NCBI GenBank assembly: GCA_035294085.1
Contig: DATGLP010000008.1
Span: forward strand, 151,681 to 215,680
From: Acidimicrobiales bacterium
Lineage (GTDB): Bacteria > Actinomycetota > Acidimicrobiia > Acidimicrobiales > Bog-793
Length of the DNA stretch: 64,000 nucleotides
Direction: 5' to 3'
The position numbers and the translations under genes are program-made. Positions 16,949 to 33,076 of this stretch are shown here, piece by piece. Each line of letters opens with the position of its first letter. Within the stretch, counting starts at the first letter, position 1. Under the pieces are notes generated by a model. It was not told where the DNA came from and did no database searches. It worked only from the letters and a program-made list of their open reading frames with translations.

Positions 16949-17908
16949 CTAGGAGGCTCGCGCCGGTGTGCGAGCCGAGGCGCGCGCGTGCTCGAGCACC
17001 GCGGCGAGCCCGGCCGTCAGGCTGGTGGCGGGCCGCCAGCCGAGCAGGCGTGCGGCGCGGCTCGAGTCGAGCGCGCTGGCGCGCACCTCGCCGACCCGGG
17101 CCGGTCCGTGGAGCGGGGGCGGCGCACCCCTCGCCAGCCGGGCCATCGCCAGGTAGAGCTCGTTGACCGAGGTCTCGCGGCCCGTCCCGATGTTGAAGGT
17201 CCCCTCGGCCTCGCTCGTTGCGGCTCGCACGAAGGCGTCGGCGACGTCGTCGACGTACACGAAGTCGCGCGTCTGGCCCCCGTCGCCGAAGATCGTGGAG
17301 GGGCGCCCCGCGGCGAGGTTCGCGGCGAAGATGGCGACGACGCCGGCCTCGCCGCTCGGGTCCTGGCGGGGACCGTAGACGTTGGCGAGGGCGAGGGCGG
17401 CCGAGCGCAGGCCGGCGAGGCTGCGGTAGGCGGCGAGGTAGTCGAGCAGCGCGCGCTTCGTGATCCCGTAGAAGGAGGTGGGGCGCTGCGGGTGGTCCTC
17501 GGCGACGGGCAGGCACGCCCGGTCGACGTCGCCGTAGAGGGTGCCGCCGCTCGCCGCGGCGACGACCTTGCGCACCCCCGCCCGGCGCGCGGCGTCGAGG
17601 ACGCGCACGGTGCCCAGTACGTTCACCGTCGCGTCGCGCGCGGGGTCCGCGATCGAGGCGGCGACGCTGGCTTGGGCCGCGAGGTGGAAGACGACCTCCG
17701 GTCGGCGCTGCGCGACGAAGGCGGTGAGCGCGTCCGAGCAGATGTCGATCTGCTCGAAGCGCGCCCCTGCCGCGATCGCGCCCGCGAGGTTGGCGAGCCG
17801 CCCGGTCGACAGGTCGTCGACGACGTCGACCGTGTGGCCGTCGGCCAGCAGGCGGTCGGCGAGCGTCGACCCGATGAAGCCGGCACCGCCGGTCACGAGC
17901 GTGTGCAT
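16949..17908 (-). CDS. NAD-dependent sugar-nucleotide epimerase/dehydratase
   Basis: An extended SDR of 319 residues, similar to UDP-glucose 4-epimerase. The NAD-binding motif VTGGAGFIGSTLADRL is at the N-terminus, with Asp pair VVDDLSTG, FHLAAQASV, the serine region AASGGTLYGD and the catalytic YGITK. Substrate region: NVYGPRQDPSGEAGVV and FGDGGQTRDFVYVDDVA. Last gene of the minus-strand glycan operon, 45 bases after the GH16 gene, with a GGAAGGAG SD. It presumably supplies an activated sugar for the glycosyltransferases upstream. Confidence 0.88.
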   Translation of the reverse strand: MHTLVTGGAGFIGSTLADRLLADGHTVDVVDDLSTGRLANLAGAIAAGARFEQIDICSDALTAFVAQRRPEVVFHLAAQASVAASIADPARDATVNVLGTVRVLDAARRAGVRKVVAAASGGTLYGDVDRACLPVAEDHPQRPTSFYGITKRALLDYLAAYRSLAGLRSAALALANVYGPRQDPSGEAGVVAIFAANLAAGRPSTIFGDGGQTRDFVYVDDVADAFVRAATSEAEGTFNIGTGRETSVNELYLAMARLARGAPPPLHGPARVGEVRASALDSSRAARLLGWRPATSLTAGLAAVLEHARASARTPARAS

Positions 17909-17953: not shown

Positions 17954-18979
17954 TCACCTGCGCTGCCAGACGCGCACGTAGTCGAGCCGCAGGCTCGCCG
18001 GCCAGCGCGTCCCGACGTCGGTGCTCGGCGTGCCGAGCGTGGCGAGGTCGGCGATGAGGTACATCGGCGTCGAGACGGAGACCTCGGCCTCGAAACGGCG
18101 CACCCCGTCGACGTACCAGGTGATCGACGTCGGCTCCCAGTCGACGGCGAAGGTGTGGTAGCCGGTCGACAGGCTCGGGTCCTCGACGATGGCGTGCGGG
18201 TGCGAGCCGGGCCGGTCGTGGACCCCGAGCATCGCCTGGTCGGGGTTCGACCCCCAGACCTCGAAGAGGTCGATCTCGGGGGGGAAGGCGTGGTCGGCCG
18301 GGAGCATCCAGACCGCGGGCCACAGCCCGGTGCCGGTGGGTAGCTCGGCGCGCACCTCCACGTAGCCGTGCTCGAAGGCGAAGTGGCCGCTCGTCTGGAT
18401 GAGGCCCGACGTGAAGGGCCGGCCCGCGGCGGGCCCCGGGCGTGCCGTGAGCGAGGCGACGCCGCCGCCGACGGCCACGTTGGCCGCCTCGTACCACTCG
18501 GTCTCGGGGTTCCCCTCGTTCGTGCAGCCCCAGTCGTAGCAGGTGGACCAGCGCGCCGTGTCGAGGGCGCTCCCGCTGAACTCGTCGTCGAACACGAGGT
18601 GCCAGTCGCCGGCGAGCCCGGGCGGCCGCGCCGGCGGCGGGGCGCTCGACGGCGCGAGCTCGGCGGGCGGGATCGGCGCGTGCCGGGTCGCCTGCGTGGC
18701 GCCCGTCGCCGGGGGGGAGCGCCGGGGCGCCGGCGGCGGGCTCGCGAGCCACAGGACGCTCGCGGCCGCGAGGCCGGCGAGGGCGAGCACGGCGGCGACC
18801 CGAGCCGCCCGCGCCCGCCCGCCCCGGTCGGCCGGCCGAGGCGCCCGGGGCCGTCGCGGCGCCGGCGAGGCGAGCCGACGGCGCGTCGGCGGCGCGTCCA
18901 CCCGTGGTCGGCGCGCGGCACCGCTGGGCGCTCGCGCCTCGAGGAGGCGCGGCGCTGCGCTGGGGGCGCCGGTCCTCAC
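17954..18979 (-). CDS. Membrane-anchored glycoside hydrolase family 16
   Basis: 341 residues: a basic cytoplasmic N-terminus of about 55, one transmembrane helix (ARVAAVLALAGLAAASVLWL), a Pro/Ala/Ser linker, then a GH16 beta-jelly-roll. The catalytic motif EIDLFEVWG matches E-x-D-x-x-E (nucleophile and acid/base). Other family features: FDDEFSG, GHFAFEHGYVEVRAELP, GLWPAVWMLP and YHTFAVDWEPTSITWYVDG. GH16 enzymes cleave or transglycosylate beta-1,3/1,4-glucans and galactans, so it may trim or release the glycan. GTG start overlaps the upstream stop (GTGA). Confidence 0.9.
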   Translation of the reverse strand: MRTGAPSAAPRLLEARAPSGAARRPRVDAPPTRRRLASPAPRRPRAPRPADRGGRARAARVAAVLALAGLAAASVLWLASPPPAPRRSPPATGATQATRHAPIPPAELAPSSAPPPARPPGLAGDWHLVFDDEFSGSALDTARWSTCYDWGCTNEGNPETEWYEAANVAVGGGVASLTARPGPAAGRPFTSGLIQTSGHFAFEHGYVEVRAELPTGTGLWPAVWMLPADHAFPPEIDLFEVWGSNPDQAMLGVHDRPGSHPHAIVEDPSLSTGYHTFAVDWEPTSITWYVDGVRRFEAEVSVSTPMYLIADLATLGTPSTDVGTRWPASLRLDYVRVWQRR

Positions 18980-19350
18980 GGCGAGCTCCTCGGTCGGCGC
19001 GCGACGCGCCCGGCGACGAGGACGCCGGTCAGCCCGGCGAGGCAGGACAGCACGGCGAGCGCGCTGAAGGCGTGGCCGAGGGAGAAGCCGACGCTCACCA
19101 CGGTGGCGAGCGAGAGACTCGCCGCGACGGCGAGGACGGCCCGTTCGAGGCCGGTACCGAGCTCGACCAGGCGGACGAGGGCGTAGCCGGGGACGAGACC
19201 GACGAAGCCGAAGGTGGCGAGCGCCCGCCAGGCGACCGGCGCGTGCGCCGCCACGGCGAGCACGGCGAGCGCGGCGCACAGCGCGAGCAGCCCGTCCGCC
19301 GGTGCGACGCGCGCCGGGCGCCCGGCGGCCTCCCTGGCCGCGGGCGTCAC
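18976..19350 (-). CDS. Small membrane protein of the glycan operon
   Basis: 124 residues with three to four hydrophobic helices (LLALCAALAVLAVAA, ALATFGFVGLVPGYALV, AVLAVAASLSLATVVSVGFS, FSALAVLSCLAGLTGVL). No family recognised; the pattern FVGLVPGYALVRL recalls N-terminal pieces of some DUF1616-type or polysaccharide-synthesis membrane proteins, which is weak. Joined by GTGA overlaps to genes on both sides, so it is co-translated with the operon. Confidence 0.65.
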   Translation of the reverse strand: MTPAAREAAGRPARVAPADGLLALCAALAVLAVAAHAPVAWRALATFGFVGLVPGYALVRLVELGTGLERAVLAVAASLSLATVVSVGFSLGHAFSALAVLSCLAGLTGVLVAGRVARRPRSSP

Positions 19351-22016
19351 GGCGTGCCCCTGCTCGGGTGGTGGACGAGCTCGAGCGCGAGCACGGTCGG
19401 GGTGGACACGACGACGCGGAAGTGGCCCGAGGCGAGGACCTGCGAGCGGATGCGCGCCAGCGATCCCGGGGGCAGCAGGCCCTGCTCGCCGATCACCGCC
19501 GCGTCGGTGGCGGTGAGCAGGAGGTAGGCGTGGCGGTAGGGGCGCATCGCGCGCAGGAGGGTGCCGACGGGATCCGCGAGGAGCCGCTCGACGGCCTTCG
19601 GCCCGACCTGCGTGTACCAGTAGGTCGTGTAGTGCTCGTAGCCGTGCAGCGGCCAGGTGTCGTCGCCGACGAGGCCCGTGACGTACGAGCCGGGCGGCGC
19701 CAGCGCGTAGAAGCGGGCCGTGGCGGCCACCTCGTTCGGCGAGAAGTAGTTGACGCGCTCCTTGCCGTAGTAGGAGACGGCGAAGGCCGCGAGCAGCGCG
19801 CCGGCGACGGCGAACTTCGCGCCGTCCGCGAGGCGCGAGGCCCGCCGGCGCGCCGGGTGGAAGGCGGCGGCGCCGAGGAGGGCGAGGAAGGGGAGCGCGA
19901 ACAGGTAGACGCGAAAGACGATCTCGCCGCCGTAGCTGTTGCCGAGCAGGGCGGGCACCGGCGAGACGCACAAGAGCGCGGCCGCGAGCCAGGAGCGCCG
20001 GCGCTCGGATCGCCAGTTCCGCCAGACGCCGACGAGGGCGACGAGGCAGATCCAGGCGGTGAGCAGGCGGTCGACGCGCGAGATGAGGAGCTGGTCGGGG
20101 CTCGCGTAGGCGGCGTTGAACTGGTTGACCGACGCGTTCGAGAAGAGGTCGCCGAGGCCGGCGCTGAGCGAGGGGAAGTTGGTGGCGATGAACGTGTGCC
20201 CGGCGAGCAGGACCCAGGCGGCCGAGACCGCGAGGGCGACGGCGGGCAGCGACCGGTAGTAGAGGCGGCGGCCGAGCGCCAGGGCGGCGAGGGCCGTCAC
20301 CACCATGAACGGCGTCAGCTGGTGCGTGCAGGCGATGGCGAGCGTGCACAGGAGGACGAGGCCGTACGCGGCGCGCCGTCGGCGCCGCGCCGTCGGGTCC
20401 GCCGCGCCGTGCTCGCCGACGTCGTGCCGCCCCGGCAGGTAGCGCAGGCAGAGCGCGAGGACGACGAGGTAGAGGAAGAACGCGAAGCCCTGCGGCGAGA
20501 AGTAGTCCTGGCCGATCCAGTTGCCGAGGTAGAAGAGCCACAGCGCCGTCCAGCGCAGCCGGACGTCGCTCGTGAAGGCCCCCGAGATGAGCGCGAGCGG
20601 CCCGGCGTAGGCGAGCTCGCTGACGAAGGGGGCGAGACCGGCGTAGCCGAGCGCGGACGAGAGCCCCGAGCCGCTCGTGAGGGTGGCGTTCAAGGTGAAG
20701 AAGCCGGGCCAGTCCTGGTAGGCGACGAGCGACGGGATCGGCTGGGTGAGGTCCACGCCGTGGGTGTCGATGACGAAGCCGGTGATGGCCACGTGCTTCC
20801 AGGCCCAGGAGTAGCGCAGCGTCCCGTACAGGAGCGCCGGCGTGAGGTGGAGCACGGCGAGGAGTGCGACGAGGTGCGCCGCGAGCAGGAGCGGGTGCGC
20901 CGGTGCCCGGCGGACCCACCAGGCGAAGCCCGCCGTGAGCAGGCCGAGGCTGAGGAAGTACGCCGCGGGGAGCACGGAGACGAGGCCGAAGTCGCTCATG
21001 CGCGCGAGGTCGACGCCGTGGACGAGGACGTGGACCCACAGCGCGAGCGCCCCGGCGAGCACCGCCAGTCCGGCCACCGGCGCGAGCGAGAGCCGGCCGC
21101 GCAGGTAGCCCGCGAAGGTCGCGCCCGTCCCGGCGAGCGCCGCGACCGCGGCGAGCCCCCGGCTCGGGCGCCCGCGCGCCGCCTCGCCGAGCGAGGCCGC
21201 GACGGCGCGGGGCACGGTCGAGACCAGGTAGCTGCGCTCGTCGGCCAGGGCGCGGGAACGGCCGGCGAGGCGGACCACCTCCGCCTTGGAGCGGCCCTCC
21301 CCGTAGCAGCGGCGGAGGAAGTAGCGCCACGTCCCCCGGGCGGGCGGGACCCGGTGGTGGACGACGGCGCCCGGCTCGTAGACGAGGCGGACGCCGTTGC
21401 CCGAGCGCTGCGCGCGGATGCACAGCTCCGTCTCCTCGCAGCCGGCGCTGTTCGTCCCGTTGCGCCCGAGGCGCTCGCTGAAGCCGCCGAGCGAGACGAG
21501 CAGGTCTCGCCGGAACGACATGTTCGCGCCGACGAAGTTGCGCACCGGCCTCGTCGAGGAGGGCATCCCGGCGTGGCTGCAGCCGACGACCCAGTCGAAC
21601 GCCGGCGGGAACCAGTCGGGGCGCCTGGCCGACCACCTCGGCACGACGCGCCCGCCCGCGCCCACGACGCCGGGCTCCTCGTAGGCGGCGAGCAGACGCT
21701 CGAGCCAGCGCTCGTCGGCGGCGGCGTCGTCGTCGAGGAAGGCGACGACGTCGCCGCGGGCGCGCGCGATGCCCGTGTTGCGCCCACCCGACAGGCCGGC
21801 CGGCCCGGCGTTCTCGACGACGAGGGCGCGTGGGAACGCGAGCCGGGCCCGTTCGAGGAGCGGCGGACAGTGGTCGATGACGACGATCACCTCGGTGGGC
21901 GGCCGGGTCTGGCGCAAGGCGGAGGCGACGGCTGCGCACAGGTCGTCCCAGCGCTCCTCGGTGTACGCGCAGATCACGACCGAGACGCGCAGGCCGAGCG
22001 CCGCGAGGGTGGTCAC
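19347..22016 (-). CDS. GT2 glycosyltransferase fused to a large multi-pass membrane domain
   Basis: 889 residues. Residues 10-300 form a family 2 glycosyltransferase: SVVICAYTEERW, NAGPAGLSGGRNTGIA, the metal-binding FLDDDAAADERWL (about 94-106) and acceptor-site CEETELC. A cytosolic stretch (YFLRRCYGEGRSKAEVVRLAG) follows. From about 320 onward roughly a dozen hydrophobic helices alternate with extracytoplasmic loops (HGVDLTQPIPS, NYFSPNEVAATARFY), the layout of GT-C or polysaccharide polymerase proteins. It may extend and transfer lipid-linked sugar, or couple synthesis to polymerisation. GTG start, GTGA overlap with the flippase-kinase gene. Confidence 0.8.
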   Translation of the reverse strand: MTTLAALGLRVSVVICAYTEERWDDLCAAVASALRQTRPPTEVIVVIDHCPPLLERARLAFPRALVVENAGPAGLSGGRNTGIARARGDVVAFLDDDAAADERWLERLLAAYEEPGVVGAGGRVVPRWSARRPDWFPPAFDWVVGCSHAGMPSSTRPVRNFVGANMSFRRDLLVSLGGFSERLGRNGTNSAGCEETELCIRAQRSGNGVRLVYEPGAVVHHRVPPARGTWRYFLRRCYGEGRSKAEVVRLAGRSRALADERSYLVSTVPRAVAASLGEAARGRPSRGLAAVAALAGTGATFAGYLRGRLSLAPVAGLAVLAGALALWVHVLVHGVDLARMSDFGLVSVLPAAYFLSLGLLTAGFAWWVRRAPAHPLLLAAHLVALLAVLHLTPALLYGTLRYSWAWKHVAITGFVIDTHGVDLTQPIPSLVAYQDWPGFFTLNATLTSGSGLSSALGYAGLAPFVSELAYAGPLALISGAFTSDVRLRWTALWLFYLGNWIGQDYFSPQGFAFFLYLVVLALCLRYLPGRHDVGEHGAADPTARRRRRAAYGLVLLCTLAIACTHQLTPFMVVTALAALALGRRLYYRSLPAVALAVSAAWVLLAGHTFIATNFPSLSAGLGDLFSNASVNQFNAAYASPDQLLISRVDRLLTAWICLVALVGVWRNWRSERRRSWLAAALLCVSPVPALLGNSYGGEIVFRVYLFALPFLALLGAAAFHPARRRASRLADGAKFAVAGALLAAFAVSYYGKERVNYFSPNEVAATARFYALAPPGSYVTGLVGDDTWPLHGYEHYTTYWYTQVGPKAVERLLADPVGTLLRAMRPYRHAYLLLTATDAAVIGEQGLLPPGSLARIRSQVLASGHFRVVVSTPTVLALELVHHPSRGTP

Positions 22017-24415
22017 CGGGCCAGCACCGCCTCGAGCACCGGCTCGACGTTGGAGGCCCACCACAGGGCGTGGCGGTGGTAGCGGCGGGACTTCTGGAGG
22101 TTCCCGGCGACGTGGTTGAGCCAGGTCCACAGGACGAGCTCGCGGTGGTCGATCGGGCTCGCAGCCACCGCCGGTGCCGCCTCGCCGAGCACGGCGTCGT
22201 CGGGCCAGTCGGGCTCGGCGAGCACGCGGCGGACGAGCTCGCCGAGCTGGCAGCGGCGCGTCTCGCAGTAGAGCGTGCCGACCCACGCGAGCACGTCGAG
22301 CTCGGCGAGGCCGTGTGGGTTCGCCTGGCCCCAGTCGAGGACACCCGTCACGCGCAGCGCGTCGGGCGCGAGCAGGACGTTGCCGGGCGTGAAGTCGCCG
22401 TGGGTCCACGACAGCCGGACCACCTTCCCGCGGGCCGCGTCCCGCAGCCGGCTCCCGAGGCGCTCCAGGGCGTCGGCGTGGGCCACGGGGACGTCGCGCC
22501 TCGGATGGGTGCGCGCGAGCAGGTCGAGCTTGGGCGTGAGGATGCCGTCGAGGAGCGTGTCGTCGAGGAGCCGTGGCGCCGCGGTGGCGGCGTGGAGGCT
22601 CGCGATGGCCTGGAGCCCGGCGCGCGCGACCCTCGTGCGCAGCCACGGCGCGCCGAGGACGAGGAGCCTCGCCGAGACGCCCGGGAGCGCCGGCTGGACG
22701 ACGAAGCTCGGCTCGCCGTCCCCCTGCAACGACGGCGCCGGCAGCAGGCTCCGGAAGGCGCGCAGGCGGTCGTCGGAGCCGAGCGCCTCGAGGACGCGCT
22801 GCTCGGCGAGCAGCTCGGCGAGGGCCCGGTCGCTGCGGGGGACCTTCACCACGGCGAGCGGGACGCGCGCCGGGCTCTGCAGCAGCAGGACGGTGAGGTC
22901 GGAGGCGCTCGGCGCCACGTGCAGCTCGGCGATGCGGCGCGACGTACCGAGGCACTCGAGCGGCAGGTGCGAGACGAGCTGGGGGAGCAGCCGCGACGCG
23001 AGCCGGCGCGCCTCGCGCACCTGGCGCGGTCGGCGCAGCGGGTTGTGGAGGTCCGGGAGGGAGCGGCGCACGAGGAGGCGTGCCGCGCCGAGCCGCGCGG
23101 CGGCGACGGGCCGCGGCCTGGCGGCCCGCGCCGGCGCGGCGAACAGGACACGGCCGAAGGCGGGGAGGACGATCGCGGCGACGGCGCACTGGGCGACGAG
23201 CCAGGCGAGCCCGGCGGCCGCGATGCCGAGGTGGTCGAGGAGGGCAGCGGTGAGCCCGATCACCGAGGCGCACAGGCCGAGGTCGAGGAGGAAGACCAGC
23301 CGGGTCCGGCGCTGCACCCGCAGCGCGCCCACCGCGGTCGAGTTGACGATGAAGGGGAGGGACGAGAGCGCGAGCAGCCGCAGCGTCGTCGTCCCGGTCG
23401 CCGCGTAGGAGCGGCCGAAGAGGGAGAGGATCGCGGGCGCGCCCGCGACCACGACGGCGACGGCGGGGACGAGGAGCTTCGTGAGGTGCACGATGACGCG
23501 GCGGCACTGCGGCCCGAGCTGGCGCGCGTCGGCGGCGGTCTCGACCACGAGCGACAGGCCGATGTTGATGCTGACGAGGTAGAGGGCGTAGGCGATCACC
23601 CACGAGAGGCTGAAGGCGGCGCTCACGGCCGGGCCGGCGTGCTCGATCACGAGGAGCGGGAGTAGGAGCGTCGCGGTGAGCCAGCACAACGACGCGAGGT
23701 AGTCGTAGGGGACGTAGCGGACGAGGTCGTGGAGGCGCACGTCGCCCTCCGGGGAGCGCCGCTGCTGGCGCGGGATCGCCCGGCCGAAGAGGTAGAGGTT
23801 CGTCGGCACGACCGTGGCGAGCGACGCGAGCGTCCAGGCGACGAAGATGCCCGCACCCTTGAAGCTCGCCGCGAAGGGCAGGACGAGTCCCGCCTTGAGG
23901 AGGGAGAAGCCGGCGTTCTCCACCGGCACCCACGGCGCCCGCCGCAGGCCCGTGAGGGCCCCGTCCTCGAGGACGAAGATCGCCCACACCGCGGTGGCGA
24001 GCGTCCACCACACGACCATCAGGTGGTCGCGGCGGATGAAGTCGAGGCGCCCGGCGAGCTCGGGCACGAGGAGGGCGAACCCGAGCGCCAGCACGACGGC
24101 CACGACGACGGCGAGCGCGTAGCTCGAGACGACGAAGCGCAGGATCTTGCGGCCGGCGGTCGGGATGAAGCGCGTCAGCGCGCTCGTCAGATTGAGCTGC
24201 GCGACGCCGCCGAGGAAGGTCATCGTCGACAGCGCCGCGGCGTCGCGCCCGACGTCGGCCGCCGGGTAGCCGCGTGCCGCCAGCACCCAGAACGCCATCC
24301 CGATGGCAGACGTCGCCATCGAGCTGAGCACGAGGGCGTGCCCGTTGCGGAAGAGGGGGTCCCGGAGCTCCTCGAGGAGCGCCGGCCGCCGCAGCGCGTG
24401 GCCTGTCCGGCTCAC
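22013..24415 (-). CDS. Wzx-type flippase fused to an aminoglycoside-phosphotransferase-like kinase
   Basis: 800 residues. Residues 20-430 are a MOP-superfamily polysaccharide flippase with about 12 helices (RNGHALVLSSMATSAIGMA at the start; GGVAQLNLTSALTRFIP; FFGRSY-like LFGRSYAATGTTTLRLLAL). Residues 480-800 form an APH/choline-kinase-like domain: lysine in AVVKVPRSDRALAEL (about 525), Brenner motif WTHGDFTPGNVLLAP (671-678) and metal-binding LDWGQANPHGLAELDVL (694-). All key kinase residues appear intact. I know no characterised protein with this fusion. It could phosphorylate the exported glycan or its lipid carrier. GTG start overlaps the next gene. Confidence 0.8.
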   Translation of the reverse strand: MSRTGHALRRPALLEELRDPLFRNGHALVLSSMATSAIGMAFWVLAARGYPAADVGRDAAALSTMTFLGGVAQLNLTSALTRFIPTAGRKILRFVVSSYALAVVVAVVLALGFALLVPELAGRLDFIRRDHLMVVWWTLATAVWAIFVLEDGALTGLRRAPWVPVENAGFSLLKAGLVLPFAASFKGAGIFVAWTLASLATVVPTNLYLFGRAIPRQQRRSPEGDVRLHDLVRYVPYDYLASLCWLTATLLLPLLVIEHAGPAVSAAFSLSWVIAYALYLVSINIGLSLVVETAADARQLGPQCRRVIVHLTKLLVPAVAVVVAGAPAILSLFGRSYAATGTTTLRLLALSSLPFIVNSTAVGALRVQRRTRLVFLLDLGLCASVIGLTAALLDHLGIAAAGLAWLVAQCAVAAIVLPAFGRVLFAAPARAARPRPVAAARLGAARLLVRRSLPDLHNPLRRPRQVREARRLASRLLPQLVSHLPLECLGTSRRIAELHVAPSASDLTVLLLQSPARVPLAVVKVPRSDRALAELLAEQRVLEALGSDDRLRAFRSLLPAPSLQGDGEPSFVVQPALPGVSARLLVLGAPWLRTRVARAGLQAIASLHAATAAPRLLDDTLLDGILTPKLDLLARTHPRRDVPVAHADALERLGSRLRDAARGKVVRLSWTHGDFTPGNVLLAPDALRVTGVLDWGQANPHGLAELDVLAWVGTLYCETRRCQLGELVRRVLAEPDWPDDAVLGEAAPAVAASPIDHRELVLWTWLNHVAGNLQKSRRYHRHALWWASNVEPVLEAVLAR

Positions 24416-27174
24416 GAGCCGTCCCGGAGCCTGGCGCGAAGGGCGAGGAGGCGCGCGAGCCGCAGCGGGACGCCGCGCAGGCCGGCCTCCCGCAGCGAGA
24501 GGAGCTCGAGGAGCGCTCGTGCGGGCGGCGCGCCCGGCGCCAGTGCGCAGCGCTCGCAGCCCCCGGGTCGGTGGCCGAGGAGCCGGCGCACCGCCTCGGC
24601 GAGGCCTGCCTGGTAGGGGTCGCGGAGGACCTGGGCACCCGCCTCGGCGAGCGCCGGCGCAGCGTTGGCCGGGGCGAGGGCGAGGCTGGCGAGCGCGAGC
24701 ATGCCTGCGTCGGCCTCGCTGTCGCCGACGGCGAGGGCGAGGCGCGGCTCGGCATCGACACCGCCGGCGCCGAGCAGCGCGCGCAGTGCGACCGCCTTGT
24801 CGCAGCCGCGCGCGACGAAGTCGGTCTGCTCCTCGCCGTAGACGGGGACCACCTCGTCGCGGACGCCGGCCGCGTCGACGAGGTGCGCGACGAGTGCCGG
24901 CTCGAGCCCGACGCGCCGGCCGCCGGGGCCGCGGCGGTAGGCGCGCACCGAGCGCCGGTAGCTCGCGTCGATCACGACGTCGGGGCGCGCGTCGCAGGTC
25001 TCGCGCAGAGCGTCGAGCGCCGCGCGCTCGGGCGGGTGGAGCAGCTCGCGCACCGAGGCGTCGCGCCCGTCGTGGACGACCCCGCCGTACTCGCCGACGC
25101 CGCCGGGCAGTCCCCAGGCGACACAGCGGTCGACGACCTCGTCGAGGCTGCGCCCGGTGGCGAGGACGACCCGGTAGCCGTGGGCGCGAAGGGCGCGCAG
25201 CGCCATCGCACCGAGGTGGGTCGTGGCCGGGAAGCCGAGCACGGTCGTCTCGAGGACGCCGTCGAGGTCAAGCGCGCACCACGGCCCCTCGGGCGGCGGA
25301 TCGAGGTCGGCGAGGTAGCGCTCGTGCACGAAGCGCTGGAAGGCGCGCGCCTGCCGGCGAGCCGTCTCGTCCGGGTCGAGCTCAGCGAGGCGTCGCAGGT
25401 TCCACAGGTGGACGAGCTGGAAGACGAGCCAGCGCTCGGGCTCGACGCGCCGGCCGCTCGCCGCCTCGAAGGCGGTGCGCAGCGCAGCGGGGAAGGCCGG
25501 GTCGCCGGAGGCGCTCGCGCAGGCCGCGAGGTCCGCGGCGACGTCGTAGCTCGCGAGGTCGAGGTGGCCGCCGGACCCCTCGGCGAAGTCCTCGCGTACG
25601 GCGGGGCGGCGCCAGTCCGTGAGGAACCAGCCGCCGCGCGCGGCCGGTCCGTCGGTCACGGCCGGCACGCTCGCCTCCACGAGCCGTCTCGCCACCGGCT
25701 CGCTCACGAGCGGGCGCATCGCGAGCTCGAGGGGACCGAGCGGACGTCCGACGAGGCGTGCTGCCACCTCCCAGACGGGCTGACGTCCGGCGAGGAGCGC
25801 GGCCCGGTCTCGCGCGACGCCGAGTGCTCGCTCGCGCTGCGCGGCGTGCGCGGCGACGAGCGGCGCCACCTCGGCGGTCAGGCGCTCGCCGTCGAGTCGT
25901 CGGGCCTCCGGCAGCTGACGGTGGTAGAGGACGCCGTCGACGAGACCGATGACGGGCGCGAAGAGCGACGGCGCGGCCGTGGCGAGGGCCACGGCGCGCC
26001 TGCCGAAGTAGCCGAGGCCGACGCCTTGCGCCACGACCGGCTCGATGCGCACGACCGAGGCGTCTCGCCAGCGGACGCGAAAGGCGCGCCGCAGGTGTCC
26101 GCGCGCGGGCCGAGTGGCCGGACCCAGCGCCTCGATCTCCTCGACGACCGCCGCGGGTCCGAGCAGGCGAGCGAGCGAGCGCGCCACCTCCTCGGGGCGG
26201 AACTGGCGATGGCACGCCCACTCGTCGAAGGGGAGCACGAGCGCCGGGATCCCCCCGAGGGCGTCGGGAAGGCGCGCCTCGGCATCGAAGGATGCCAGGG
26301 CGAGCACGAGCTGGGACGGCTGCACCCGGGCCTCGCAGCGCAGGCCGTCGACGACGGCAGCGAGGGAGCGGCCGCTCTGCGGCGGGTCGTCCACGACGAG
26401 GACCGAGCCGCCGCGCGCGGCGCAGCGGCACAGGGTGGCCCGCGCCGAGGGCGCCACCGGCCAGCCAGGCCGAGCCGAGGCGACGCCGACCTCGCGAAAG
26501 CCGAGGCGCGCGAGGCCGGCGGCGAGGAGCGGGGCGAGGTACGAGCCCGAGGTGCGCACCCCGACGACGGTGATCGGGCGCGAGCGGTCGGGCCAGCGTG
26601 CCGCGTAGCGCGTGGCGAGCTCGACGAGGTCCGCCGGTCGCTGGTCGAAGCTGTGGAAGCACGACGGTGGCCGCAGGACCTCGCCGGCGTACCGGGCGCC
26701 GAGCGGCGCGAGCGCCTCGACGAGCGCGCTGCCGTGCTCCTCGAGGCGCGCGGCGAGCATCGGGGTCGCCCCGTCCCCGCCGCCGACGACGAGGCCGGCG
26801 AGCTCGGCGAGGAGCCGCTCGAGACCTGCGAGGGCACTGGCTTCGACGCGTCGCTCGCGACGGCCGACGGCGGAGGCAGCGCGCTCGGCCAGCCGCGCGC
26901 CACGCGCCGCGGCCGCGGCGGTCCGGCCCTCGCGCTCGCGGGCGTAGGCCGCGACGCGCCGCAGGAGGCGCCGTGCTGGCGGGCAGGCGTCGGCGAGGAC
27001 CTGGTGGACGCCGGCGGCGAGGAGGTAGGCGTCGAGCCAGTTCCGCGCCGTGAGCTCGTCACCGAGCATCGAGACGAGCGCTTCCAGGTCGCCCAGCAGG
27101 TCGAGGGGCGCGGCGCGCGTGCCGAGGGGGGCACCCTGCTCGCCCGGCGCGACGTCGCGTACGACCGTGGTCAT
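24412..27174 (-). CDS. Phosphoribosyltransferase / kinase-like / HAD phosphatase multidomain protein
   Basis: 920 residues. 1-150: helical, Ala/Arg-rich. 160-340: type I phosphoribosyltransferase-like, with ITVVGVRTSGSYLAPLL and a PRPP-loop VLVVDDPPQSGRSL (about 258-271). 355-600: a region recalling aminoglycoside-phosphotransferase/kinase folds (VAQGVGLGYFGRRA, WFLTDWRRPAVREDF, LDLASYDVAADLA), possibly degenerate. 630-860: HAD phosphatase, with DLDGVLETTVLG (636-), LATGRS and GDSEADAGML (817-). The last 50 residues have CERC. Combined PRPP chemistry and phosphatase suggest a phosphoribose-based modification. Single ATG with GTGA/ATGA overlaps on both sides. Confidence 0.7.
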   Translation of the reverse strand: MTTVVRDVAPGEQGAPLGTRAAPLDLLGDLEALVSMLGDELTARNWLDAYLLAAGVHQVLADACPPARRLLRRVAAYAREREGRTAAAAARGARLAERAASAVGRRERRVEASALAGLERLLAELAGLVVGGGDGATPMLAARLEEHGSALVEALAPLGARYAGEVLRPPSCFHSFDQRPADLVELATRYAARWPDRSRPITVVGVRTSGSYLAPLLAAGLARLGFREVGVASARPGWPVAPSARATLCRCAARGGSVLVVDDPPQSGRSLAAVVDGLRCEARVQPSQLVLALASFDAEARLPDALGGIPALVLPFDEWACHRQFRPEEVARSLARLLGPAAVVEEIEALGPATRPARGHLRRAFRVRWRDASVVRIEPVVAQGVGLGYFGRRAVALATAAPSLFAPVIGLVDGVLYHRQLPEARRLDGERLTAEVAPLVAAHAAQRERALGVARDRAALLAGRQPVWEVAARLVGRPLGPLELAMRPLVSEPVARRLVEASVPAVTDGPAARGGWFLTDWRRPAVREDFAEGSGGHLDLASYDVAADLAACASASGDPAFPAALRTAFEAASGRRVEPERWLVFQLVHLWNLRRLAELDPDETARRQARAFQRFVHERYLADLDPPPEGPWCALDLDGVLETTVLGFPATTHLGAMALRALRAHGYRVVLATGRSLDEVVDRCVAWGLPGGVGEYGGVVHDGRDASVRELLHPPERAALDALRETCDARPDVVIDASYRRSVRAYRRGPGGRRVGLEPALVAHLVDAAGVRDEVVPVYGEEQTDFVARGCDKAVALRALLGAGGVDAEPRLALAVGDSEADAGMLALASLALAPANAAPALAEAGAQVLRDPYQAGLAEAVRRLLGHRPGGCERCALAPGAPPARALLELLSLREAGLRGVPLRLARLLALRARLRDGS

Positions 27175-28574
27175 CGGGTGTCGCCGGCCCGGCGGAGGCG
27201 GTGCCGGCTGCGCAGGTAGGCAGCGGGCCCGGCGAGGATGCCGCGCCGTTCGAGGCGCGACAGTGCCGCCGGCCATGCCGGCGCGCCGGGTACGAGACGA
27301 GCGAGGTCGCCCTCGGCGATCGCAGCGGCACCGGAGTGCCTGAACGTGTGGACGAGGGCCTGGGGGAGGCGGCCGGCGAGCGCCGCCGCGACGCGAGCGT
27401 CCTTGAGCGCGACGCTCGTCACGTAGGCGCCGAGTCCGACGCCGTAGCCGTAGGCCTGGCGGGCGAGCGCCGCCGGCTCGCGGTGGTGACGGTGCCACGC
27501 GATCGCGGCGGGCTGGTACGCGAGCGCGGCGCCCGTCTGGAGCACGCTGAAGAGGGCGGCGAGGTCGTCACCCCCCATCGCCGGGGTGCCGGTCCCGAGC
27601 GCCGGGTCGAACCCGCCGATGTCCCGCAGCAGCCGGGCGTCGAACGCCATGCTCGCGCCCGAGCCGAGGCGCCCTGCGGAGAAGGGGAAGAGCGGATCGG
27701 CGGGGCGGCGGGTGGCCCGGTCGACGACGAAGGGGGCGAAGCCCTTGGCGAAGCGCCCATGGGCCTCGAGGAGCCACTGCGTGGGTGTCTCGAGCTCTGC
27801 AGGAAGGATGAGGCCGGTCGCCGCCCCGACGGCGGGGTCCGTGACGAACGGTTCGACGAGGGCGCTGAGCCAGCTGCGGTCGACGACGACGTCGTCGTCG
27901 GTGAACGCGACGACGTCGCCCTGCGCCTCGCTAAGCGCTCGATTGTGGGCGGCGCCGAGCCCGCGGCGGCGCTCGCGCACGTAGCGGGCGGTGGCGACGC
28001 CCGCGAAGCGACGCTCGCACGCGACTCTCGTGTCGTCGCTCTCGGGGTCGTTGTCGACCACGATGATCTCGAACTCCGGGTAGTCGAGCGCGAGCAGGGA
28101 GTCGAGGCACCGCTCGAGCTGGCGCGGCCGCTCGCGTGTGGCCACGACCACCGAGGCGGGCCGCGCCCGGGCGAGGGCCTCGCGCCGGGCTGCGAGGCAC
28201 CGGGGACGTGGGCACGGCGCGGGTCGCCAGAGCTCGAGGGGACGGACCGGGACGAGGCCGTCGGCGCGCAGGTGCGCGTCGATGGCCGGACCGAGCGCCG
28301 AGGAGACCGCCTCGCTCCAGGAGCGAGGAGGCTCGGGCGCGGCCAGGTCGAGTGCCACGACGCCGAGCGGATGGCCGTGGAGGCGGACGAGGACGAGGGC
28401 CGTTCGTGCCTGGCGCGCCACACCGTCGCCGGCGCTCGATCGCCCGGGGAGGAGGCTGCGCAGGCCGGCCTCCAGGTGGACCTCGAGGACGGCGAGGGGG
28501 AAGCAGGTCGTGGGCGATCCGACGGCAGCGCCTCGCTCCTCACGAGCGCGTGGCGCGAGGGCACTCGTCGCCAT
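27171..28574 (-). CDS. Family 2 glycosyltransferase with N-terminal extension
   Basis: 467 residues. The first 130 form an unassigned domain (LEVHLEAGLRSLLPG...HGHPLGVVALDLAAPEP). A GT2 domain begins at about 140: SVVVATRERPRQLERCLDSLL, IIVVDNDPESDDTR, LGAAHNRALSEAQGDVVAFTDDD (metal site DDD) and the GGDDLAALFSVL acceptor motif. No clear transmembrane helices, so it is probably a soluble or peripheral enzyme. It starts ATG in a TGATG junction with the upstream GT2 gene. Confidence 0.85.
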   Translation of the reverse strand: MATSALAPRAREERGAAVGSPTTCFPLAVLEVHLEAGLRSLLPGRSSAGDGVARQARTALVLVRLHGHPLGVVALDLAAPEPPRSWSEAVSSALGPAIDAHLRADGLVPVRPLELWRPAPCPRPRCLAARREALARARPASVVVATRERPRQLERCLDSLLALDYPEFEIIVVDNDPESDDTRVACERRFAGVATARYVRERRRGLGAAHNRALSEAQGDVVAFTDDDVVVDRSWLSALVEPFVTDPAVGAATGLILPAELETPTQWLLEAHGRFAKGFAPFVVDRATRRPADPLFPFSAGRLGSGASMAFDARLLRDIGGFDPALGTGTPAMGGDDLAALFSVLQTGAALAYQPAAIAWHRHHREPAALARQAYGYGVGLGAYVTSVALKDARVAAALAGRLPQALVHTFRHSGAAAIAEGDLARLVPGAPAWPAALSRLERRGILAGPAAYLRSRHRLRRAGDTR

Positions 28575-29461
28575 CACTCGGGGAGCGCCAGCGGGTCGTC
28601 GCCGCTCGCGTCCGCACGCGCGCGCCTCGCCTCGACGCGCTGCGCGATGAGCGTCCGCAGGACTCGCTGGCCGTCCCGGAAGCTGTGCAGGCTGGAGCGA
28701 CCTCCTCGTCTCGGCAGCTCGAGGCTCGGGATCTCGGCGATGCGCAGGCCGGCGAGGAAGGCCCGCACCGTGAGCTCGGTCTCGATCTCGAACCCGGTCG
28801 ACTCGAGGGCGAGGTGCTCGAGGAACCGCCGGCGGAAGGCGAAGAACCCGTAGCACAGGTCGGTGAAGCGAGACCCGTAGAGGAGGTTGGCGACCGCGAG
28901 CAGGCCGCGGTTGCCGATCCGCCTGAGGGGCGTGATGTCGAGGGAGCCGCCGCCGCCCACGAAGCGCGAGCCCTTCACGAAGTCGTAGCCGCGCTCGAGG
29001 AAGTAGAGCAGGTGGGGGATCTCCTCCGGAGACATGCTCCCGTCCGCGTCCATCGCGACGATGACCTCACCCCGAGCGGCGTGGAACCCGGCGCGCAGCG
29101 CGCACCCCTTGCCGCGGGCGGGTTCGGAGATGATGCGGATGTCGGGGCGGCAGGCGCGCGCCATCAGGCGGGTGGCGTCGCGGGATCGGCCGTCGACGAG
29201 GAGGATCTCGTCGACGCAGGCCGGCACGCGCTCGAGTACGTGCGCGAGGTTGCGCGCCTCGTTCTTCGCCGGGATGACGAGGCTGACGGCCGTCGCGTCT
29301 GCTCGTTCACCGGACCGGTCTGCGTGCTCGGGCGCGTCGGTGTCGGGCGGCAGAGGTGCGATCGCTGGGAAGCGGTCGACGCGCCCGTCGACGGCCGCCC
29401 GGCCAGCGTCGCGCGCGAGCGCCTTCTCGTGCGCTCCGTCGGCGAATGCTTGTGATGACAC
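28574..29461 (-). CDS. Dolichol-phosphate-mannose-synthase-like GT2, first gene of the glycan operon
   Basis: 295 residues. GT2 core after a 60-residue disordered N-terminus: SLVIPAKNEARNLAHVLERVP, LVDGRSRDATRLMA, RGKGCALRAGFHAARGEVIVAMDADGSMSPEEI (D-x-D metal site) and VKGSRFVGGGGS. This is the pattern of polyprenyl-phosphate sugar synthases, which would make a lipid-linked sugar donor. Start GTG at 29461 with AAGGAGGGGG about 10 bases upstream. It opens an eight-gene run reading to 16949. Confidence 0.85.
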   Translation of the reverse strand: MSSQAFADGAHEKALARDAGRAAVDGRVDRFPAIAPLPPDTDAPEHADRSGERADATAVSLVIPAKNEARNLAHVLERVPACVDEILLVDGRSRDATRLMARACRPDIRIISEPARGKGCALRAGFHAARGEVIVAMDADGSMSPEEIPHLLYFLERGYDFVKGSRFVGGGGSLDITPLRRIGNRGLLAVANLLYGSRFTDLCYGFFAFRRRFLEHLALESTGFEIETELTVRAFLAGLRIAEIPSLELPRRGGRSSLHSFRDGQRVLRTLIAQRVEARRARADASGDDPLALPE

Positions 29462-30550: not shown

Positions 30551-33076
30551 GTGGGCGAAGGGCGTGCACCGGCGGGCGGCGAGGCGCGTGCGGGGGCGTC
30601 GAGTGCTGGGGAGAGGGGGCGGGATCGCGTCCGCCGGCGGCTCGTCCTCCTCGCCGGTGCCGCGCTCGCCGCGGGCCTCGCCGCTTCGGCGCCGGTGCTC
30701 GCGGTGAAGCCCGCCGAGGCGGCGAGCGCGCCGCTCGTGTCGGTGTCGACGAGCGAGCTCGACGCCGCGGCCCGGCCGATCGTGCTGCCGGCGACGCTCG
30801 CGCCGGGAGACGTCCTCCAGGTGACCTTCAATCAGGCGGTGTCGGTCGACCCCACGAGCTTCAGCCTCGAGCTGACCGACGGCGTCATGGTCGCGTCGCT
30901 CGACGCCGCGGACGCCACCGCCGTCGCCTCCGGGTCGACCCTGTCCGTCACCGCCGGGCCGGGCGCGCCCGCGGTCTCCCTCGGCGTGCTCGAGATCCTC
31001 GGCGCGACGGGCGTGACGGCCGCGTCCTCCGGTGCCCCGTGGAACCTCGTGCTCAGCGGCGAGGCGTCCCGCGTCGACAGCCCCAAGGCGCCGACGACCT
31101 GCACGCCCGTCTACACGCGCGTCTTCGGCGGTACGAACTGCTCGATCGGCTTCACCCACCCAGGTCCGACCGTCCCCGACGTCTACGACGTGATCGCCGT
31201 CCCGACGATCGACCTCCCCGGACCGCCCCTCGACACCGCTCCCGAGGTCATCACCAACTGCGGCGGCGGCTCGACCGACACCGTGTACGACACCGCGACC
31301 GGGACCGTGCTCGGCCAGGCCCCCTGCGGGACCTACGACGCGGGCGAGCCGTACCTCGGCAACACCACGTCCTCCTCGCTCGACTACATCCCCACACCGG
31401 CGCTGCGCTCCTTCGAGCCCGTCGGCGTCGTGGAGACGCTGCCCAACTCGCCCTACGTGAGCGCGACCGCGGTCCCGCCGCTGTGGAGCGGCGTGTCCGT
31501 GAGCGGCAACACGGCCACGTTCACCTACGACACGCCGGTCTCCTGCCAGAGCCCCGGCTCCCCGAACACCTACTCGCAGTTCACCTTCTCCGCGCCGTGG
31601 TGGTCGACTGACTCGGTCGTCTACGCGTCGGCGGTCACCTGCCCGGCGACGGAGTCGAGCCAGCTCACGGTCACGTTCCCCGAGACGATCCCGAGCGCCG
31701 TGCACTTCAAGTACACCGGCTACGGCTACGACGCCCAGGGTGTGGGCTACTTCGTGGTCGGCGGCTCCTCCAGCCCGCTCGCGGGCGAGCGTGAGGCGTC
31801 GCAGAGCGCGTACGCGGGTCCAGCCGCCGCGCCGGCGGACCCGAGCATCGCCACGTTCGGCGCGGGGAGCGTCGCCGCCAGCCCCGGCGGGGCGAGCGTC
31901 TCGCTCTCGTACGCGGTGAGCGACGCGACGCGCTGCGAGGTGACGGTGTCGCCCTCCGACGGGGTGCAGGTCTCGCTGCCGTACGCGACGCTCGCGAGCG
32001 ACCCGGCGCCGGCGTCGCTCGTGCCATGCCCGGACGCGCTCGGCACGGGCACGGTGACCTTCCCTCCGAACACCTCCGGCGCGCCGCAGCGCTACGAGCT
32101 CGTCCTGCGGGCCGCGGGTCTGGCCGGCTCGACCGCAGCGGAGGCGCAGACGACGGTCGAGGTCCCGCCGGCGCCACCGGGTATCGCCAACCTGTCCGTC
32201 TCGCCGAGCTCGCTCGGTGCGGCAGGGGGCACGGCGACGGTGACCTACGCCACGTCGAACGCGACCTCCTGCGAGCTCGCCGCGACACCGTCGGTGGCCG
32301 GATCTGGCGCGCTGGCCTGTGGCGCAACGAGCGCGACCGTGAGCATCCCGGCGAACTCGTCGACCACCGCGCTCGCCTACCTGCTCACGCTGACGGCCAC
32401 CGGGCCGGGAGGTTCCACCTCCGCGAGCGTCGAGCTCTCGGTCGCGCCCGCAACCCCGCCCCCGACGCCGCCGGCGGGCACCTCGGCGCCGCCCACCAGC
32501 GCGCCGCCGGCGACGCTGGTGTCACCGGCGCCGGTGCGCCGTCAGGTCCCCGAGGTTGCGTCGCTCGTGCCTCGCTCCGCGCCGCCCGGGCGCGCCGTCG
32601 TCATCGTGGGCGACCACTTCACCGAGCGCGTCGCCGTGCGCTTCGGGGCGCTGCTCGCCAGACAGGTGCGCGTCCTGTCGCCGACGCGCCTTCGCGCCGT
32701 GGTGCCGCGCGGCGCCGGGCGCGTGCGCGTCAGCGTGCACACCGCCTACGGGACGAGCCAGCCGGCGCCGGGCGCCGTGTTCACCTACCGCACGTCCCCG
32801 GGCCACACCAGGCACGGGCCACGCGTCACGACTGTCGTGCCTCGCTCCGCGCCGCCCGGGCGCGCCGTCGTCATCGTGGGCGACCACTTCACCGAGCGCG
32901 TCGCCGTGCGCTTCGGGGCGCTGCTCGCCAGACAGGTGCGCGTCCTGTCGCCGACGCGCCTTCGCGCGGTGGTGCCGCGCGGCGCCGGGCGCGTGCGCGT
33001 CAGCGTGCACACCGCCTACGGGACGAGCCAGCCGGCACCGGGCGCCGTGTTCACCTTCGCCCGTCGCCCGAGCTAG
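30551..33076 (+). CDS. Large secreted protein with Ig-like and two TIG/IPT domains
   Basis: 841 residues. A long basic N-terminus is followed by a signal-peptide helix (LVLLAGAALAAGLAASAPVLA) ending near AEAASA. Then come a domain with DPTSFSLELTDGVMV, an unassigned Cys-containing region of about 230 residues (CTPVYTRVFGGTNCSIGFTHP), two related Ig-like modules (ASVSLSYAVSDATRCEV and ATVTYATSNATSCEL), a Pro/Thr-rich linker, and two nearly identical TIG/IPT domains (VPRSAPPGRAVVIVGDHFTE). No LPXTG or anchor helix, so it is likely released or held by other surface material. GTG start has GGGAGG 5 bases upstream. Confidence 0.75.
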   Translation: MGEGRAPAGGEARAGASSAGERGRDRVRRRLVLLAGAALAAGLAASAPVLAVKPAEAASAPLVSVSTSELDAAARPIVLPATLAPGDVLQVTFNQAVSVDPTSFSLELTDGVMVASLDAADATAVASGSTLSVTAGPGAPAVSLGVLEILGATGVTAASSGAPWNLVLSGEASRVDSPKAPTTCTPVYTRVFGGTNCSIGFTHPGPTVPDVYDVIAVPTIDLPGPPLDTAPEVITNCGGGSTDTVYDTATGTVLGQAPCGTYDAGEPYLGNTTSSSLDYIPTPALRSFEPVGVVETLPNSPYVSATAVPPLWSGVSVSGNTATFTYDTPVSCQSPGSPNTYSQFTFSAPWWSTDSVVYASAVTCPATESSQLTVTFPETIPSAVHFKYTGYGYDAQGVGYFVVGGSSSPLAGEREASQSAYAGPAAAPADPSIATFGAGSVAASPGGASVSLSYAVSDATRCEVTVSPSDGVQVSLPYATLASDPAPASLVPCPDALGTGTVTFPPNTSGAPQRYELVLRAAGLAGSTAAEAQTTVEVPPAPPGIANLSVSPSSLGAAGGTATVTYATSNATSCELAATPSVAGSGALACGATSATVSIPANSSTTALAYLLTLTATGPGGSTSASVELSVAPATPPPTPPAGTSAPPTSAPPATLVSPAPVRRQVPEVASLVPRSAPPGRAVVIVGDHFTERVAVRFGALLARQVRVLSPTRLRAVVPRGAGRVRVSVHTAYGTSQPAPGAVFTYRTSPGHTRHGPRVTTVVPRSAPPGRAVVIVGDHFTERVAVRFGALLARQVRVLSPTRLRAVVPRGAGRVRVSVHTAYGTSQPAPGAVFTFARRPS
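32565..32786 (+). repeat. TIG-domain DNA repeat, copy 1
   Basis: A 222-base stretch repeated 270 bases downstream with only about two differences. It encodes the TIG/IPT domain of the secreted protein. Confidence 0.9.
32835..33056 (+). repeat. TIG-domain DNA repeat, copy 2
   Basis: Second copy of the 222-base unit, including synonymous sites identical to copy 1, pointing to recent duplication or gene conversion. A 48-base linker separates the two. Confidence 0.9.

Follow-up and report, generated by a model that had tools for sequence, protein, structure and literature searches.

What does a kinase do on a polysaccharide flippase? The question is raised by a single gene in a 64,000-nucleotide stretch of Acidimicrobiales DNA (the window, referring to the whole stretch analysed), whose product appears to consist of a Wzx-like flippase followed by a kinase of the APH family. 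An earlier sequence-only reading of this DNA had described one uninterrupted 800-residue frame, and this is confirmed at 22013-24415, where no internal stop is present. The coordinates were exact; the strand, which had been left unstated, is minus, and a plus-strand reading of the same interval is ruled out by a stop codon in that frame. The gene and its parts are laid out as follows.

22013..24415, minus strand: fusion gene, Wzx-like flippase plus APH-family kinase (800 residues, GTG start)
23156..24415, minus strand: predicted flippase domain, residues 1-420, 12 transmembrane helices with N-terminus and C-terminus inside (from PF01943, averaged hydropathy and a positive-inside count)
22931..23155, minus strand: Arg-rich, predicted cytoplasmic linker, residues ~421-495 (from alignment and loop charge)
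22013..22930, minus strand: predicted APH-family kinase domain, residues ~496-800 (from PF01636, alignment and the APH-fold matches of a low-confidence model)
22844..22846, minus strand: K524, beta-3 lysine (kinase alignment)
22379..22402, minus strand: H672-G-D674-xxxx-N679 catalytic loop (kinase alignment)
22334..22336, minus strand: D694 of the D-W motif, the metal-binding Asp of APH kinases (kinase alignment)

The simplest answer would be that there is no such protein, and that an assembly or sequencing artefact has joined two adjacent genes. The source assembly (2.42 Mb) is in 31 contigs, which leaves some room for such an error, but the same junction occurs in independent assemblies of many genera and in complete rhizobial plasmids, and an artefact is improbable in the extreme. 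Third-position GC is 0.95-1.00 in each 80-codon block of both domains, and this constancy indicates that there is no frame break where flippase and kinase meet. With the junction recurring in independent assemblies and the codon signal continuous across it, a sequencing error or misread stop between the domains is excluded.

A search for the fusion in other Actinobacteria, as the sequence-only reading had proposed, yields homologous fusions in related and distant genomes. Full-length fusions are present in Actinomycetota (G000, G001, G004 with two, G058, G391, G214 with two, and G586), one close relative being an Acidimicrobiaceae metagenome assembly, and on megaplasmids of the Rhizobiaceae Shinella zoogloeoides, Ensifer adhaerens and Sinorhizobium fredii, so that the architecture spans two phyla, Actinomycetota and Pseudomonadota. 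The rhizobial fusion loci contain a family 16 glycoside hydrolase (GH16), a polymerase-like membrane protein and family 2 glycosyltransferases (GT2s), with a GNAT gene in those of S. fredii and Rhizobium sp. and a deacetylase in those of Shinella and Rhizobium sp. Because the same fusion recurs in exopolysaccharide clusters of distant bacteria, the flippase-kinase fusion is real. No relatives of it were found in viral contigs. On a plasmid of Rhizobium sp. RCAM05350 (L119:11911-13975), the fusion gene appears to be broken into several frames and is annotated in pieces; genes outside the window were called with a home-made coding-potential script.

The N-terminal half matches Polysacc_synt (PF01943) with E 2.7e-5 to 5.1e-6 and 24.2-26.6 bits, below the curated cut-off of 28.2, and no MurJ/MviN Pfam match was found in a Pfam scan of the fusion protein. 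The 12-helix Wzx-like flippase that had been read from the sequence is borne out by hydropathy, which gives 12 peaks when averaged over 25 aligned flippases. In the same alignment, lysine and arginine number 22.0 on the N-terminal side vs 4.9 on the opposite side, and, given this excess on the side of both termini, the N-terminus, the C-terminus and hence the kinase are predicted to be cytoplasmic; the cytoplasmic placement of the kinase claimed earlier thus holds as a prediction from helix number and positive-inside charge. The full-chain AlphaFold model, built from two alignment rows with a mean pLDDT of 42, is unusable for domain placement. Residues 1-420 can be assigned, from these sequence features, as the Wzx-like flippase of an exopolysaccharide assembly operon. 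Between the two domains, the Arg-rich linker differs in length among homologues in the alignment.

The C-terminal 354 residues, scanned alone, match APH (PF01636) with E 1.4e-13 and 51.7 bits against a cut-off of 23.2, a domain that Pfam leaves unreported when the full chain is scanned; the domain search proposed with the two families of HMMs therefore returns PF01943, under its cut-off, in the N-terminal part and PF01636, above its cut-off, in the isolated C-terminal part. The MOP superfamily includes MATE pumps, and APH(3') models give the kinase weak scores, so that a drug-resistance protein, composed of a MATE-like exporter and an aminoglycoside phosphotransferase, has to be considered. 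It is very unlikely: the NCBIfam APH models reach 20.9 bits against a cut-off of 450, the N-terminal half matches Polysacc_synt, and the gene lies in a glycosyltransferase operon, in an exopolysaccharide context that is repeated elsewhere.

By both sequence and fold, the best matches of the kinase are APHs and fructosamine, malto-, glucosamine and choline kinases. The kinase-only model is of low confidence (pLDDT 58, pTM 0.55) and serves for fold class only; its best structural match has Z 9.1 and an rmsd of 5.7 A over 255 residues, and the VIA-align matches listed for it are APH-fold kinases. A fold match at this level supports membership of the APH family, not any particular substrate.

Whether the domain is an enzyme can be judged from its residues. 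The lysine, HGD...N and D that had been reported as kept are all present in the window protein, as K524, H672-G-D674, N679 and D694. Among 20 kinase copies, the H-G-D, N and D-W set is intact in 18, including all stand-alone ones, and the three rhizobial fusions, additional to these, keep it as well. Position 524 is K in 17 copies, R in two (G214a, G586) and H in one, and the alignment further reveals a C-terminal family signature, WLxHVxxNLxKSxRYxxxxxWxxxNVxxVL. The two copies whose catalytic residues are gone, G004b (LGA, E, G) and G214b (HGN, N, NW), are both fused, and each of their genomes, G004 and G214, also has an intact fused copy. From 18 intact copies and two fused exceptions, the domain looks mainly enzyme-like, with a minority of pseudokinase paralogues, and we infer that the kinase is active.

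The degenerate copies lend some weight to a different role, in which the kinase-fold domain would sense a ligand or partner and gate the flippase, catalysis being secondary or auto-regulatory. They have lost the catalytic residues and kept the domain alongside an intact copy, and there is a precedent in mycobacterial MurJ/MviN, where the C-terminal pseudokinase domain, which lies inside the cell, has been proposed to gate the flippase (PMC6180346, PMC10166564). Retention of the catalytic set in nearly all copies, stand-alone ones included, argues against such a regulatory module, and G004b sits on a long branch (2.28), which fits plain decay; we regard gating as an unlikely primary function.

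The genes around the fusion point to its place in polysaccharide assembly, and comprise the following.

28574..29461, minus strand: family 2 glycosyltransferase, AglJ / polyprenyl-phosphate-sugar-synthase-like (profile matches)
27171..28577, minus strand: family 2 glycosyltransferase of the operon (profile matches)
24412..27174, minus strand: upstream PRTase-HAD gene, 920 residues, 4-nt overlap with the fusion (PRTase-like and HAD-IIB motifs)
19347..22016, minus strand: family 2 glycosyltransferase plus polytopic membrane part, 889 residues, 4-nt overlap with the fusion
18976..19350, minus strand: small membrane protein (weak DUF1616 match)
17954..18790, minus strand: GH16 glycoside hydrolase (recurrent fusion neighbour)
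16949..17908, minus strand: NAD-dependent sugar epimerase (profile match)

Together with the fusion gene, those from 29461 down to 18976 form a minus-strand operon in which consecutive genes overlap by about 4 bases, and the GH16 and epimerase genes come after it on the same strand. The polytopic part of the 19347-22016 product is Wzy-like by position and by a weak EpsG match. This gene content identifies the operon as an exopolysaccharide (EPS) assembly locus. Tailoring genes are abundant in the kinase and flippase loci, including NodB deacetylase, GNAT/FemAB, GH16 and ATP-grasp. ATP-grasp proteins adjoin the fusion or the kinase at L072:12002-13480 and L077:8689-9921, and a third, different one lies at L112:2775-3998. 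Divergent from the window operon, a gene at 30695-33076 (plus strand) encodes a large secreted-type protein, a relative of which (E 1e-141) adjoins the intact G004 fusion at L024:2777-5149; this protein may belong to the EPS system.

The upstream neighbour has an unusual layout, with a type I PRTase-like domain (VDDPPQSGRS loop), a long conserved middle and a HAD-IIB phosphatase, and its full-length rows keep both the VDDPPxSGxS-type loop and the DxDG, TGRS, K and GDSxxD motifs. Such PRTase-HAD proteins of about 900 residues, with a C-terminal GHRPGxCxxC motif, are encoded at 24412-27174 (minus) in the window and at L074:10217-12997, L026:7130-10099, L112:7504-10410 and L115:9412-12060. A second kinase-like domain, suspected by eye in the middle region, was rejected when profile comparison proved no better than shuffled controls. 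The protein resembles the gPRT-PRP proteins, glycan phosphoribosyltransferase-phosphatases that use PRPP to attach ribofuranose (PMC11127046), and Hib Bcs3 CriT/CrpP (PMC10299916) in combining a PRPP-type transferase with a HAD phosphatase in a polysaccharide context. It differs from them in its long unassigned middle region and in lacking a sequence match to them among the PDB search matches listed: a profile search against the PDB listed only general HAD phosphatases, with no Bcs3 or solved gPRT. PRTase-HAD is possibly a PRPP-dependent ribofuranosyltransferase, and if the likeness to gPRT-PRP holds, the EPS would contain ribofuranose.

This neighbour bears on what the kinase may phosphorylate. 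The kinase could be a tethered small-molecule enzyme supplying a precursor in phosphorylated form (sugar phosphate, amino-alcohol phosphate or the like), to be built into the polymer or used in decorating it, with the fusion serving only to co-localise and co-express it. Close relatives are soluble stand-alone proteins (in G604, G522, G422, G049, G334 and Mycobacterium-type genomes), the fold neighbours of the low-confidence model are small-molecule kinases, and PRTase-HAD, itself a soluble enzyme of sugar-phosphate type, adjoins the kinase or the fusion in all seven genomes that have it (G000, G001, G004, G049, G334, G392, G422). Since separate kinase copies are among those that adjoin the PRTase-HAD gene, a role in precursor supply is also allowed, and in G334 the kinase and PRTase-HAD adjoin a fusion of an NTP-transferase with an aminotransferase. 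Yet precursor supply leaves unexplained why kinase and flippase are joined in several distinct lineages, and most fused loci (G058, G391, G214 and the rhizobial ones) have no PRTase-HAD in the stretch read, nor was this gene found in the plasmid collection; a precursor kinase is a possible but doubtful account of the fusion. The NTP-transferase/aminotransferase fusion, about 600 residues long, occurs in flippase/kinase-type loci at L112:4735-6621 and L118:7900-9744 (a Pseudonocardia plasmid), and suggests that the glycan may be decorated from a nucleotide-activated amino compound.

Further evidence comes from loci in which flippase and kinase are separate. The unfused kinase lies in the same exopolysaccharide locus as the flippase in G604 (~4 kb away), G522 (~2 kb) and G392 (~4 kb); in G392 the flippase, GNAT, PRTase-HAD and kinase genes follow one another in this order on one strand, an arrangement that we interpret as the split form of that in the window. 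G052 has a weak kinase match ~11 kb from its flippase, and in G610 a separate kinase lies at a contig end. The kinase is found in 8 of 29 flippase-selected genomes (7 without the weak G052 match) vs 5 of 325 class genomes, but the Fisher p-value of this co-occurrence is indicative only, since search depth (6 vs up to 58 candidates scored) and cut-off (1e-25 vs 1e-15) differ; the physical adjacency of the genes is the stronger evidence. G049 has kinase and PRTase-HAD side by side, no flippase being seen close to them, and G420 falls within the fused flippase clade without a kinase. Changes between the fused and the separate state number at least 3 on the kinase tree and at least 5 on that of the flippase, from which the two domains appear to have been joined or parted repeatedly in evolution; these counts leave a single origin unsupported and are compatible with repeated gain of the fusion as well as with one gain and subsequent losses.

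Related genes show other arrangements. In Mycobacterium-type genomes the kinase family adjoins a polyprenyl-sugar-synthase-like GT2, with no flippase nearby (L083:5969-7797, L114:8968-10823). Flippases of the same group are joined to a polymerase-like membrane protein in G585, G555 and G052, and single chains of 1016-1377 residues with these two parts are encoded at L082:11298-15431, L087:5458-9330 and L027:6899-9949, the L082 and L087 chains coming from genomes of 9-10 Mb. In the Mycobacterium-type genome G733, a flippase of the same group is fused to an AMP-binding, carrier and thioesterase module (L088:6855-10736, minus strand, 1293 residues), giving an exporter that carries an NRPS-like unit.

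The reading that we prefer, at somewhat under an even chance, is close to the suggestion of the sequence-only reading: the lipid-linked glycan or its carrier would receive a phosphate from the kinase at the cytoplasmic face, and the fusion would couple this modification to translocation. The acceptor would be the polyprenyl-linked repeat unit, at a sugar or another of its hydroxyls, or else the carrier itself; phosphorylation would precede or license flipping, and the fusion would couple it to translocation by the flippase. Counted in favour are the recurrent fusion, the kept catalytic residues, the predicted inside location of the C-terminus, the tailoring-rich loci, the WbdD precedent discussed below and the separate kinases within the flippase loci of G604, G522 and G392. 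Counted against are the mostly small-molecule substrates of APH-family kinases, the retention of two catalytically degenerate fused copies, the G049 and Mycobacterium-type kinases without a nearby flippase, and the G420 flippase without a kinase.

A bolder and more doubtful version of coupled phosphorylation and export is a “modify, then flip” checkpoint, in which the flippase’s own kinase phosphorylates the lipid-linked cargo as a ticket for translocation, in at least two phyla and in places with a pseudokinase as the gate. How a flippase recognises a completed lipid-linked glycan is an open question in polysaccharide export, and the recurrent fusion and splitting, together with natural degenerate paralogues, offer a direct route to test the coupling of modification to flipping. 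From such a flippase one would expect phosphate on the exopolysaccharides, or at least on their intermediates, of Acidimicrobiia relatives, other actinobacteria and rhizobia, and cultivated strains of Sinorhizobium fredii, Ensifer and Shinella make this practical to examine.

Among known systems, the flippase half resembles the Wzx of Wzx/Wzy-dependent clusters, having 12 predicted helices, a Polysacc_synt match below the cut-off, and an operon that it shares with glycosyltransferase genes and one for a polymerase-like membrane protein. An ordinary Wzx chain stops once its last helix is complete, whereas the fusion carries a kinase. In mycobacterial and corynebacterial MurJ (MviN), as here, one chain carries a MOP-type flippase and then a kinase-fold domain located inside the cell; however, MurJ has 14 helices, is the proposed lipid II flippase, and its pseudokinase is phosphorylated by the Ser/Thr kinase PknB, while the window protein has 12 predicted helices, an exopolysaccharide locus and an APH-family domain with intact catalytic residues. 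MurJ/MviN is the closest described architecture, with the window protein falling outside it by family, helix number and kinase type. The claim that no described protein has such an architecture needs narrowing accordingly: a flippase with a catalytically dead domain of another kinase family exists, and what stands is that no report of a flippase joined to an APH kinase with intact catalytic residues was found in the literature searched, which mostly excludes subscription journals.

On the kinase side, phosphorylation of a polyprenol-linked glycan ahead of export has a precedent in WbdD, a kinase-methyltransferase from E. coli O9a (PMC3482155); the kinase fold of WbdD is eukaryote-like, its action ends polymerisation in a pathway that uses an ABC transporter, and it is separate from the exporter. 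By family, motifs, PF01636 and fold matches, the fusion kinase is closest to APHs, LicA choline kinase and the fructosamine, malto- and glucosamine kinases, but these are soluble, act on small molecules and are not joined to a transporter. What is new relative to these systems is that an EPS flippase carries its own, apparently active kinase, an arrangement in which a sugar chain may be phosphorylated and exported in physically coupled steps.
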